From: Komagataeibacter sp. FNDCR2
Lineage (GTDB): Bacteria; Pseudomonadota; Alphaproteobacteria; Acetobacterales; Acetobacteraceae
Direction of reading: 5' to 3'
NCBI RefSeq assembly: GCF_021295395.1
Contig: NZ_JAIWOU010000001.1
Location: forward strand, 1,735,501-1,799,500
Length of the DNA: 64,000 bases
Both the position numbers and the translations under genes were made by a program. The notes under the pieces were generated by a model. It saw only the letters and a program-made list of their open reading frames with translations, was not told the DNA's origin and did no database searches. Shown one piece after another: positions 2,416-8,736 of the stretch (position 1 is its first letter; the number at the start of each line of letters is the position of its first letter).

Positions 2416-3033
2416 TCAGGCGTAATCCGGCACGCCGGGCATGACCGTGAACCCCGGCAGCGCGCGCAGCCTGCGGGCCCACCGCCGCAGCGCGGGGCAG
2501 GTATCGCGCTCCACCCCGACATCGGCCGACAGCGCGAACACCACGAACAGCACCACATCGGCAATGCTGGCGGCAGGGGCGGCGAACCAGTCATGGCCGT
2601 CCAGCGCGCGCGCGCTCATGTGGTCTTCCATCCGGCGCAGTGCCGTATCCAGCGCGCCGGTGGCGGGCGCGACGGGCTCGGTGGTGCCCAGCGCGCCCCC
2701 ACGGCTGGCGGCCAGCGTATCGAGCGCGCCAGCCCCGAAATCCAGCCAGTCCAGGATGGCCCATTCACAGGCGGGGTCGAGCCACGCCCGCGCCACGGCG
2801 GGCTGGCGGGCGACAAAATGCACAATGTTGGCAGGCCGCGACAGGTACTGCCCCCCACATTCCAGCACGGGCGGGCACAAGCCCCCCGCCAGCGCCGCCA
2901 TATGGCGGGCGGCAGGCAGGTCCATGTCCACCGCGACCGTGCGGTATTCCACCCCCATGAGCGACAGGCCAAGGCGCACGGCATAGCAGCGCACATCCGG
3001 CGTCCAGTCATACAGGACCATATCCATCTTCAC
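2416..3033 (-). CDS. Glutathione S-transferase-like protein
   Basis: About 205 residues with an N-terminal thioredoxin-like half (VLYDWTPDVRCYAVRLGL, then a strand with the cis-Pro region CPPVLE) and an all-helical C-terminal half, as in cytosolic GSTs. The start is taken as GTG at 3033. It overlaps the TGA of the upstream Rieske gene in a GTGA four-base overlap and follows a GGAGAA ribosome site, so the two are translationally coupled. An upstream ATG at 3072 is possible but lies inside the Rieske gene. Tight coupling suggests that it serves the adjacent oxygenase, perhaps in handling the product or redox state; that role is inference. A catalytic Ser, Tyr or Cys is not obvious in the first motif. 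Confidence 0.75.
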   Translation of the reverse strand: MKMDMVLYDWTPDVRCYAVRLGLSLMGVEYRTVAVDMDLPAARHMAALAGGLCPPVLECGGQYLSRPANIVHFVARQPAVARAWLDPACEWAILDWLDFGAGALDTLAASRGGALGTTEPVAPATGALDTALRRMEDHMSARALDGHDWFAAPAASIADVVLFVVFALSADVGVERDTCPALRRWARRLRALPGFTVMPGVPDYA

Positions 3034-3683
3034 GCCAGTTCTCCCATGACCGGGGCCGTCTCGCCCCCACATTCCACCGCATCGCGCAGGCGTTCGGCCC
3101 AGCGCGAAAGGAAGGGAGCGGATGGCCCCTCCGCCCCCGCCGCCCGCACCACATGCAGCATGGCCTGCCCCGCGACCGGCTCATGCACCGCCAGGCCGAC
3201 GGGGCCACGCCAGACCACGGGCATGTTTTCCGCCCCGCCGATCGCGTGACGCAGATGCGTGACACCCGCGCGGACATGCATGCTGCGCACCGGCGTTATC
3301 GCATCCGGCCCCCACGGCGCATGCAGGGGAAAGTCCTCCGCCGCTTCCAGGCTGACCCAGACCAGACCGGCCCCCTCACGCACGCCATAGGCCGCCACAT
3401 GGATCGAGGCGGGCACGCGCACCTGCGGATGGGCCGGGATCAGCCTGCACCGCGCGGCGGGACCGAACTGCCAGCCATGGTACAGGCAGCCCAGCCCGTC
3501 GCCGCGCACAAAACCGAAACTGAGCCGCATGCCGCGATGCGGGCAGCGGTCCTCCCACGCATGGAGGGTGGAGGCGGCGCTGTCCTCGCGCCACAGCACG
3601 ACCTCACGCCCGCCAATGCGCACGCCCGCGACCTCGCCACGGCGTATATCCGACACGACACTGACCGGATGCCATCTGTGCAT
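3030..3683 (-). CDS. Rieske [2Fe-2S] protein with a vestigial oxygenase catalytic domain
   Basis: 217 residues. The Rieske cluster ligands are intact: C47-x-H49 in CPHRG and C66-x2-H69 in CLYHGW, the pattern of ring-hydroxylating oxygenase alpha subunits. After the Rieske domain (about 1-115) only about 100 residues remain, against more than 200 in a full catalytic domain. Residues 137-158 align without gaps to the iron-binding helix of the divergent neighbour at 3870 (its 100-121), but each iron-site residue is replaced: N to A147, D to G150, H to N153, H to W158. The end (GGETAPVMGEL) also resembles the neighbour's C-terminal GGAEVPTMADR. This looks like a duplicated oxygenase reduced to its electron-transfer half. 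It is co-translated with the GST-like gene. Confidence 0.85.
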   Translation of the reverse strand: MHRWHPVSVVSDIRRGEVAGVRIGGREVVLWREDSAASTLHAWEDRCPHRGMRLSFGFVRGDGLGCLYHGWQFGPAARCRLIPAHPQVRVPASIHVAAYGVREGAGLVWVSLEAAEDFPLHAPWGPDAITPVRSMHVRAGVTHLRHAIGGAENMPVVWRGPVGLAVHEPVAGQAMLHVVRAAGAEGPSAPFLSRWAERLRDAVECGGETAPVMGELA

Positions 3684-3772
3684 ATGCTTCCCGCTCCCTT
3701 TCGCCGACCAGAACAGGGCGTGCCGCAGGCCATGCGGGACGCGACCGTGTGTTCAGCCATTCTTTCACGCCA

Positions 3773-3792
3773 CGGGATGGCGTGCCATCCCG
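3773..3792. promoter_or_regulatory. Perfect inverted repeat in the divergent oxygenase promoter region
   Basis: Arms CGGGATGG and CCATCCCG are separated by CGTG, in the 186-base gap between the divergent Rieske and catalytic-subunit genes. The position suits an operator for both promoters, or a hairpin in the leader of the rightward gene. No regulator gene is adjacent. Confidence 0.4.
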
Positions 3793-3869
3793 AGTGGAGC
3801 TAACATTGCGCCTTCGTTACGGCAATCCATGCGCGCCATGGATGGCCTGCCGCAAACAGGAACCGGGCC

Positions 3870-4724
3870 ATGACACAGACCACCCCAGCCGCCGAAACCG
3901 TTCTGTCCGAATGGCATGTGATCAGCCCGCTGTCGCACCTGCGCGCCATGCCAACCGACACCATGCTGCTGGACCGGCACATCACCTTTGGCCACCACCC
4001 GGACGGAACACCCTTCGCCTGTGACGTGGCGGACAGGCGCGCCCTGCCCGTGCAGGCGCGCCATGGCTGCCTGTGGACCTGCCTTGGCACGCCCGACGGC
4101 GATGTCCCCGCCATTGTCGAGGCCACGGAGCCGGACCGCAGGGTCGTGGACTGCGGCGTGTTCACCGTGCGGACCTCCGCCCCGCGCATTATCGAGAATT
4201 TTCTCGACATGGCGCATTTTCCCTTCGTCCACACCAACATCCTCGGGGCCGAGCCGGATACGGAAGTCGCGCGCTACACCATAGAACTGCGCGAAAACGG
4301 GAACGAGGTCTGGGCCACGGACTGCCATTTCTACCAGCCGCAGGCCGCCCTTTCCGCCGCCGGGGGCATAGAGACCGAATACCTGTACCGCGTGGCCGGC
4401 CCGTTCGTGACGCTGCTGTACAAGACCTGCCCCACCCAGCCCGGGCGCTTTGATGTCATCACCCTGTTCGTCCAGCCCATGACACAGGAATGCAGCCGCG
4501 CGCATCCGGTCATGTTCCTGATTGACGATGTCTCGCCCCAGGCCGACCTGATCCAGTTCCAGCAGACCATCTTCCTGCAGGACCGCATCATACTGGAGAA
4601 CCAGCGCCCGCGCCGCCTGCCCATTGCCGGTGGGGCGGAAGTGCCCACCATGGCCGATCGCATGTCGGTGGCGTACCGGCGCTGGCTGCGCGACCGTGGG
4701 GTGACGTACGGCACGACGTCGTGA
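3870..4724 (+). CDS. Rieske-type oxygenase catalytic subunit lacking its own Rieske cluster
   Basis: 284 residues. The mononuclear non-haem iron motif N110-x2-D113-x2-H116-x4-H121 (ENFLDMAHFPFVH) is intact, and D238 in FLQDRIILENQ sits where the third iron ligand lies in vanillate demethylase and dicamba monooxygenase relatives. The N-terminus begins like a Rieske domain (WHVISPLSHL) and ends like one (VQARHGCLWTCLGTP). Both cluster-binding loops (CPHRG and CxYHGW) are missing, and only about 55 residues replace the usual 100 or so. The protein therefore cannot hold its own [2Fe-2S] centre. The likely electron donor is the divergent Rieske protein at 3030. Substrate unknown; an oxygenase or demethylase reaction is expected from the family. 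Start ATG at 3870. Confidence 0.85.
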   Translation: MTQTTPAAETVLSEWHVISPLSHLRAMPTDTMLLDRHITFGHHPDGTPFACDVADRRALPVQARHGCLWTCLGTPDGDVPAIVEATEPDRRVVDCGVFTVRTSAPRIIENFLDMAHFPFVHTNILGAEPDTEVARYTIELRENGNEVWATDCHFYQPQAALSAAGGIETEYLYRVAGPFVTLLYKTCPTQPGRFDVITLFVQPMTQECSRAHPVMFLIDDVSPQADLIQFQQTIFLQDRIILENQRPRRLPIAGGAEVPTMADRMSVAYRRWLRDRGVTYGTTS

Positions 4725-7030: not shown

Positions 7031-7369
7031 ATGAAATTCGTTATTGCCATCATCAAGCCATTCAAGCTCGATGAGGTACGCGAAGGGTTGCACTCCATCG
7101 GTGTCGATGCACTGACCGCAACCGAGGTGAAGGGATATGGCCGCCAGAAAGGCCAGACCGAGATCTATCGCGGTGCCGAATACAACATTCAGTTTCTGCC
7201 CAAGATCAAGCTTGAGATCGCGGTGCCGGACGCCCTGTGCGAAAAGGTGGTGGACGTGATCCAGACCGCCGCATGCACCGGCAAGATTGGCGATGGAAAG
7301 ATTTTTGTTCTCGATCTTGAACAGGCAATACGGATCAGAACGCAGGAAACCGGAGAAAACGCACTGTGA
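7031..7369 (+). CDS. glnK: Nitrogen regulatory protein PII (GlnK)
   Basis: 112 residues, the standard PII length. It has [13 protein letters not shown] at the start, the T-loop with the uridylylation tyrosine Y51 (YRGAEYN) and the [11 protein letters not shown] nucleotide-binding B-loop at about 83-93. It senses 2-oxoglutarate and ATP/ADP. GlnK-type PII proteins block the ammonium channel AmtB when nitrogen is plentiful. The GTG start of amtB overlaps its stop (GTGA), so the two are co-translated; this linkage favours glnK over glnB. A good GGAAGGGAA-like ribosome site precedes the ATG. Confidence 0.95.
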
Positions 7370-8736
7370 TCACAAAGATTGGCAAGAAAGCAGGGCTGGC
7401 GGGTGTGATTGGCGCGGCGGCCATGACCAGCCTGCCCGCCATGGCGGCCGACGCGGCCCCCCCCGCGATCGACACCGGCGATACCGCATGGATGCTGGTC
7501 AGCACGGCGCTCGTGCTGATGATGACCATTCCGGGCCTGGGCCTGTTCTATGCCGGCATGGTCCGCAAGAAAAACGTGCTTGCGACGCTTATGCAGTCGT
7601 TTGCGATCTGCTGCATCATGACCGTGGTGTGGATGATGCTGGGCTACAGCCTGGCCTTTACTTCGGGCAACGCCTATATCGGCGGCCTGTCGCGGGTCAT
7701 GCTCAACGGGCTGGGCGCTGGCATTTCCAAGGGTTCGGACGTGGCCTTCACCATGGCGGCGGGCACGCCCGCGGCCGTGGCCATGACCATCCCCGAGAGC
7801 GTGTTCATGACGTTCCAGATGACATTCGCGATCATCACCCCGGCCCTGATTGCCGGTGCGTTCGCCGAACGGATGAAGTTCAGCGCCCTGTGCGTGTTCA
7901 CCATCGCCTGGTCGCTGCTGGTCTATGTGCCCATCGCCCACTGGGTGTGGGGACCGGACGGATGGGTCGCGGGCAAGATCGGCGCCATTGACTTCGCCGG
8001 TGGCACGGTCGTGCATATCAATGCCGGTATCGCCGGTCTTGTCGCGGCCCTGGTGATCGGGCGGCGCAAGGGCTACGGCGTTGATGACCTGTCTCCCTAC
8101 AACCTGACCTATGCCGTGATCGGCGCGTCCCTGCTGTGGGTTGGCTGGTTCGGCTTCAACGCCGGGTCCGCCGTCGGCGCGAATGGCCGTGCGGGCATGG
8201 CCATGGCCACGACCCAGATCGCGACGGCGGGCGCCGGTGTCGCATGGATGTGCGCCGAATGGCTGAAGACCGGCAAGCCCACGGTGCTGGGCATCATTTC
8301 CGGCGCGGTGGCGGGCCTTGTGGCCATTACGCCCGCGGCGGGCTTCGTGCTGCCCGGCGGCGCGCTGCTGATCGGCCTTGTGGCCGGTGTGGTCTGCTTC
8401 TGGGGTGCGACAACGCTGAAGCACCTGATGGGCTATGATGACAGCCTCGATGCGTTTGGCGTGCATGGCATTGGCGGTATTGTCGGCGCGCTGCTGACCG
8501 GCGTGTTCGCCTATGGCCCGCTTTCCGCCACCGACGCCAGCCCCGATGGTGTCAGCGGGTCGTTCGCGCAGTTCCTGGCGCAGGCGGAATCCGTGGGTGT
8601 CACCATCGTATGGTGTGGTGTGCTGACCTTCGTGATCCTGAAGATCGTGGACCTGACGATCGGCCTGCGTGTCTCCGCGGATGAGGAAATGGAAGGCCTC
8701 GACATGGCCCTGCATGGTGAGCGGATCAACTCCTGA
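7366..8736 (+). CDS. amtB: Ammonium transporter AmtB
   Basis: 456 residues starting with GTG inside the glnK stop codon. An N-terminal signal peptide ends near MAADAAPP, as in other Amt proteins whose first helix is cleaved. About eleven membrane helices follow. The conserved pore histidines are visible in HINAGIAGL (near 215) and in [14 protein letters not shown] (near 365). The Amt motif [11 protein letters not shown] lies near 165. It moves ammonium across the inner membrane, and trimeric AmtB is gated by GlnK. A strong terminator follows at 8757. Confidence 0.95.

Follow-up and report, generated by a model that had tools for sequence, protein, structure and literature searches.

The described system closest to the locus reported here is the caffeine N7-demethylase NdmCDE of Pseudomonas putida CBB5, which takes off the final methyl group when bacteria degrade caffeine. 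As far as the available portions of PMC4408171 and PMC10380055 describe it, NdmC carries no Rieske cluster, the cluster being located on the reductase NdmD, and NdmE is a GST-like protein required for the NdmC/NdmD system. The same portions report a 3:3:3 complex of about 360 kDa that carries out the N7-demethylation of 7-methylxanthine, and a passage of PMC13237722 gives the structure of this complex as unsolved as of 2026. NdmA and NdmB hold both domains on one chain and form an alpha3-alpha'3 hexamer. HpxD (L047, L042), a related full-length purine oxygenase annotated as a molybdenum-independent xanthine hydroxylase, also has both domains on one chain, with its own reductase HpxE adjoining, and acts by ring hydroxylation, while SxtT and GxtA, from the unrelated saxitoxin pathway, are full-length homotrimers.

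The window analysed here, a stretch of 64,000 nucleotides from Komagataeibacter sp. FNDCR2, contains a triad of genes that resembles NdmC/NdmD/NdmE in having a catalytic subunit without a Rieske cluster, the cluster on another chain and a GST-like third protein. The triad comprises a 217-aa Rieske partner (3030..3683, minus strand; recognised from its open reading frame and Pfam), made up of a Rieske [2Fe-2S] domain and a vestigial catalytic domain; a 284-aa NdmC-like catalytic partner (3870..4724, plus strand), made up of a vestigial Rieske scaffold and an intact mononuclear iron domain; and a GST-like, NdmE-like gene (2416..3027, minus strand). The GST-like frame runs to 3072, with a likely start at 3027, two bases past the Rieske stop, and a divergent intergenic region of 186 bp (3684..3869) separates the Rieske-GST pair from the catalytic gene. 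Whereas the Rieske domain of NdmD is fused to an FNR-type reductase, that of the triad belongs to a free protein in which Pfam finds no reductase domains, and no reductase gene lies nearby. Measured against the NdmCDE type, the locus shows the 2-His-1-carboxylate site without a Rieske cluster, the cluster on an adjacent gene and the GST-like gene; the Rieske-reductase fusion is absent from it and from all 80 related loci (the best 80 of at least 565 relatives). The catalytic partner shares 45% identity with the NdmC-type protein that P. putida KF715 encodes (L042), the Ndm comparison being one with homologues of KF715, 1290, Sinorhizobium and Mesorhizobium rather than with the CBB5 sequences. 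With NdmA and NdmB the triad shares the fold, the iron ligands and, for its putative substrate, the purine class, and it differs from them, as from HpxD and SxtT/GxtA, in using two chains.

The reading favoured here, with a probability of roughly 70%, is that the triad encodes an obligate three-protein Rieske oxygenase that N-demethylates a purine, with the GST-like protein as a structural subunit. The split as such is not supported as novel, as the pertinent part of PMC4408171 already describes the same split and a GST-like partner for NdmCDE; the locus differs from it in being unfused. In the literature searched, which describes NdmCDE and does not include the primary 2013 NdmCDE paper, the unfused triad was not found, and no paper combined "7-methylguanine" with "Rieske".

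Beyond the triad, inspection of the translations by eye places a PII-type (GlnK) gene (7031-7369) and an ammonium transporter gene (AmtB, 7366-8736), both on the plus strand, about 2.3 kb away. A small plus-strand ORF at 4740-5015 matches ribosome modulation factor weakly and below the cut-off (17.7 of 27.9 bits), and CrpP-related models likewise weakly.

Regarding the individual proteins, PF00355 (Rieske) and PF19112 (VanA_C) each match one of them alone. The Rieske partner matches PF00355 at 1.5e-20, with 73.4 bits over a curated cut-off of 20.3, and its Rieske domain (residues 1-112; 3348..3683, minus strand) holds the [2Fe-2S] ligands C47, H49, C66 and H69 that had been read from the sequence, which are present in 63 of 63 Rieske partners by column counts. 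Its vestigial catalytic domain (residues 129-208; 3060..3299, minus strand), delimited by model secondary structure, structural alignment, profile register and column counts, has no iron ligands and in the model consists of a strand, a helix, three strands and a long helix. This remnant is under selection, as it has near-invariant residues of its own, namely R133, H177 and R200 (61 of 63 each) and E204 (60 of 63). No conservation is seen in the Rieske partners at the columns that the earlier note had paired with the iron ligands. In the profile register, residues 129-148 and 160-181 of the Rieske partner correspond to 92-111 and 195-216 of the catalytic partner, which leaves the residue-by-residue pairing proposed before unsupported beyond about residue 148; the single-sequence alignment of 137-158 with 100-121 is by itself insufficient to carry the claim.

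The catalytic partner matches PF19112 at 1.1e-19, with 71.8 bits over a cut-off of 23.5. Its catalytic domain (residues 76-284; 4095..4721, plus strand) contains D113, the bridging Asp of this family, and the iron ligands H116, H121 and D238; these residues and N110, all of them named in the earlier note, are identical in each of the 35 catalytic partners. At the column of the NdmA residue that we take to be the pocket amide, 30 of 34 catalytic partners have Gln and 13 of the 22 full-length enzymes compared have Asn. The N-terminal part is a vestigial Rieske domain (residues 12-75; 3903..4094, plus strand) that is devoid of both cluster loops and was recognised by hhalign against the Rieske partners (E 8.8e-7 for the N-terminus, 1.3e-6 for the whole protein).

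Neither protein is thus a canonical alpha subunit with Rieske and catalytic sites on one chain; the split of a Rieske oxygenase into two genes is real and conserved. The AlphaFold model of the Rieske partner aligns with two-domain SxtT over residues 1-208, shrunken catalytic domain included, and that of the catalytic partner over 6-283, loop-less Rieske scaffold included. SxtT/GxtA are the top PDB matches for both halves by structure and by sequence, and NdmA and NdmB are also listed. Structural alignment and hhalign therefore uphold the proposal of two half-enzymes, both of them two-domain alpha subunits that have degenerated and lack the active site of their partner. Simple fission of the gene at the domain boundary, with the additional domain of either half acquired later and no remnant, would agree with the weak sequence similarity of the Rieske-protein tail to the catalytic family (hhalign probability 6%). 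It is nevertheless very unlikely, given that each half matches both domains of SxtT in structure, that the N-terminus of the catalytic protein matches the Rieske domain at the E-value given above, and that after fission neither domain would be present twice. The most economical account is a duplication followed by complementary loss, and to that extent the earlier proposal stands, although the remnants are too short for any tree to show the duplication itself. A pseudogene or fission artefact was ruled out by the intact reading frames in both genes and the active sites invariant in relatives. No full-length alpha subunit was found near the triad (1738 kb): the genome has its further genes of the Rieske oxygenase type at C1:1549, 1891 and 2657 kb, at least 150 kb off.

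The GST-like protein of the window scores below every GST Pfam cut-off (best 22.2 of 24.9 bits), and the proteins at the same position in two relatives (L041 and L058) score above the GST cut-off. R79-P80 stands at what is presumably the column of the glutathione-binding Glu-Ser/Thr pair, and Glu occupies this column, set by motif, in 23 of 87 relatives. Its attribution to the locus holds, as the gene adjoins the Rieske gene here and 79 of 80 related loci (the best 80 of at least 565) have both genes within 10 kb.

These related loci come from a contig scan with the catalytic family, which gave at least 565 relatives among at least 588 pattern matches; the best 80 were taken, with up to 10 kb on either side of the catalytic gene. 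The closest named relatives among the matches listed are from Komagataeibacter (90-85% identity). Within the best 80 of at least 565, Rieske partner and GST-like gene are both present in 79, on the same strand in all 79; the divergent and adjacent (<1 kb) arrangement occurs in 18, and neither an NdmD-like nor a full-length HpxD-like protein occurs in any of the 80 within the 10 kb on either side. The exception is Kaistia, whose genome has a whole-length Rieske partner elsewhere. A locus of genome G042, considered as Rieske-less, was dismissed as such, since its Rieske gene is present some 6 kb away from the catalytic one. In Roseicitreum, searched on the plasmid only, a catalytic gene was found with no Rieske gene on that plasmid, and on a Lichenihabitans plasmid the Rieske gene appears in the search as two overlapping pieces (NZ_CP036516.1:149175-149842) and may be frameshifted. 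The unfused type is found in plasmid records of Rhizobium and Shinella, and the fused type in those of Pseudomonas, Sinorhizobium and Mesorhizobium. The NdmD-type gene is a single ORF on the KF715 plasmid, and on the plasmid of P. putida 1290 its annotation (L043:8850-10605) is divided into three pieces. Many operon-type loci have a small acylphosphatase-annotated ORF upstream of the Rieske gene (L041:5932-6225, for example), with a similar ORF in 19 of the best 80 of at least 565; Pfam returned nothing at E 0.001 for the L041 protein.

Across genomes, the expected co-occurrence of the halves was borne out. The catalytic-protein query matches 27 of 120 Acetobacteraceae genomes at E <=0.001, strongly (1e-73 or better) in 8 and at 2e-28 or weaker in the other 19. 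With up to 25 candidates scored per genome, the Rieske-partner model matches 43 of the 120 at 1e-25 or better, and its whole-length matches (E 1e-56 or better) fall in exactly those 8; the next ones (4e-33 and weaker) are essentially confined to the Rieske domain and, with few exceptions, belong to longer frames. Within the genus of the window, the catalytic protein occurs in 11 of 19 genomes and the whole-length Rieske partner in the same 11. The pairing of the two halves is therefore obligate-looking. This exact pairing speaks against the absence of a dedicated complex, a reading by which the Rieske protein would serve for electron transfer in general, much as a ferredoxin does, and the GST-like protein would be a detoxification enzyme of the usual kind. 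GST neighbours are frequent in aromatic catabolism, and the window genes do lie on opposite strands; against this, the Rieske and GST genes share a strand in every locus that holds both among the best 80 of at least 565, and additional catalytic copies are accompanied by additional Rieske partners (two of each in genome G125; three catalytic genes with two whole-length Rieske partners and one partial match in G123). Together with the NdmE precedent, as the relevant parts of PMC4408171, PMC13237722 and PMC10380055 present it, these observations make such a loose arrangement very unlikely.

Two catalytic genes per Rieske gene were found in at least three cases, with the Rieske and GST-like genes shared: Sinorhizobium L044 (with NdmD), contig L068 and Bradyrhizobium Ai1a-2 (L057/L126, same Rieske gene). 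In these loci, a single electron-transfer module may support the turnover of two substrates.

Concerning the relation of fused and unfused forms, the Rieske-domain tree sets 22 full-length enzymes, a narrow outgroup, against the unfused and NdmD proteins (94/96, just under the starred level), and places the five NdmD rows as a clade (100/96) beside two unfused proteins (99/95), within the unfused set. The tree of the catalytic domain unites all 34 split proteins against the full-length enzymes (99/99), and inside this group the NdmC rows (L042, L044-L046) join three catalytic proteins from loci of the unfused type (100/98). Topology tests gave p-AU 0.101 for the unfused Rieske partners as one clade, the 22 full-length rows standing outside, and, with long-branch warnings, 0.186 for the unfused catalytic partners and 0.181 for the NdmC rows as one clade. 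These results fit a split that arose once and a later reductase fusion (NdmD), which the trees favour without proving; an ancestral NdmD fusion is less favoured, though the tests are compatible with other arrangements (p-AU 0.10 to 0.19).

The genomic context of the relatives suggests a substrate class. Among the best 80 of at least 565 loci, 65 have at least one purine-type gene: a guanine-deaminase-like or other amidohydrolase gene is present in 56 (some matches having merely 25-30% identity), a guanine deaminase neighbour in 30 and a BMP-type substrate-binding protein in 64. The remaining 15 show no purine gene, four of them on contigs shorter than 12 kb. By NCBI cut-offs, L039 encodes a GuaD (419.9 bits over 375.4) and L067 an 8-oxoguanine deaminase (602.5 over 532), the L041 amidohydrolase falls below the deaminase cut-offs, and in Mesorhizobium NdmCDE adjoins guaD. 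No purine gene was found with the references used in the first 14 kb of the window; in the same genome, C1:478-484 kb holds together an amidohydrolase, a 2OG oxygenase, a BMP protein and a GuaD-like gene, about 1.25 Mb from the triad, and a second guanine deaminase above cut-off is encoded at C1:912 kb. A 2OG-Fe(II) oxygenase also recurs near purine genes elsewhere (L067:7532-8512, L144:9505-10515 and L042).

In the relatives, the neighbouring deaminases for guanine and 8-oxoguanine, together with ABC transporters of the BMP type, point to methylated guanine or another purine, and the probable role of the triad is to demethylate purines, 7-methylguanine being one example. Because of the NdmC precedent and the guanine deaminase neighbours, the best guess for the substrate would be a methylated guanine, 7-methylguanine first. 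The earlier note had called the function unknown; neighbours and the NdmC precedent narrow it to purine chemistry, most likely N-demethylation. The same split complex might instead hydroxylate a carbon of the purine ring (C8 of guanine or of a related purine) and leave methyl groups in place, with 8-oxoguanine deaminase acting downstream, as the above-cut-off deaminase of L067, the similar amidohydrolases that adjoin the catalytic gene and the annotated activity of HpxD in the wider family would allow. This is unlikely, since guanine deaminase is an equally frequent neighbour (the 30 of the best 80 of at least 565) and the closest same-split relatives with a GST, those of the NdmC type, are N7-demethylases in the relevant parts of PMC4408171 and PMC10380055.

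For the favoured N-demethylase, we infer complex formation, the electron path, the reaction and the substrate as follows. A reductase encoded at another site would supply the Rieske partner with electrons. From the [2Fe-2S] cluster of that protein they would cross a subunit interface and reach the mononuclear iron in the catalytic partner; this partner would activate O2 and hydroxylate the purine N-methyl group, so that formaldehyde leaves the product. The GST-like protein would be the structural subunit joining the two halves, like NdmE, and demethylation of 7-methylguanine would yield guanine for guanine deaminase. No dedicated reductase was found near the triad or in the best 80 of at least 565 related loci; in the window genome, PF00175 retrieved one flavohemoglobin and one FNR-like protein, Reductase_C nothing, and Fer2 five matches. 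Electron transfer between two polypeptides, which the earlier note saw as required here, is the rule in this family: as the relevant parts of PMC12445004 and PMC10380055 describe, ordinary Rieske oxygenases transfer electrons from cluster to iron between neighbouring subunits, over about 12 A, as against about 45 A within the same chain. The split would merely put donor and acceptor on two proteins.

We suggest that the two remnants form those contacts of a mixed ring that are not productive. A wider proposal, which is tentative and on balance doubtful, would make the locus a widespread 7-methylguanine-salvage triad (drawing on RNA caps, rRNA, tRNA or damaged DNA) that forms an alternating ring with dead but structural vestigial interfaces, NdmCDE being its later fusion offshoot. 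If true, such a ring, in which every second interface would be productive (from Rieske cluster to iron), would explain the persistence of both remnants. The triad offers a concrete prediction, namely an enzyme that would demethylate 7-methylguanine or a similar purine, as well as natural relatives for solving the structure of an NdmCDE-type complex and a natural setting that lets one alter the iron half independently of the cluster half. For the family, it represents a two-centre enzyme whose centres have been allotted to two degenerate copies of one subunit and kept so across Alphaproteobacteria.
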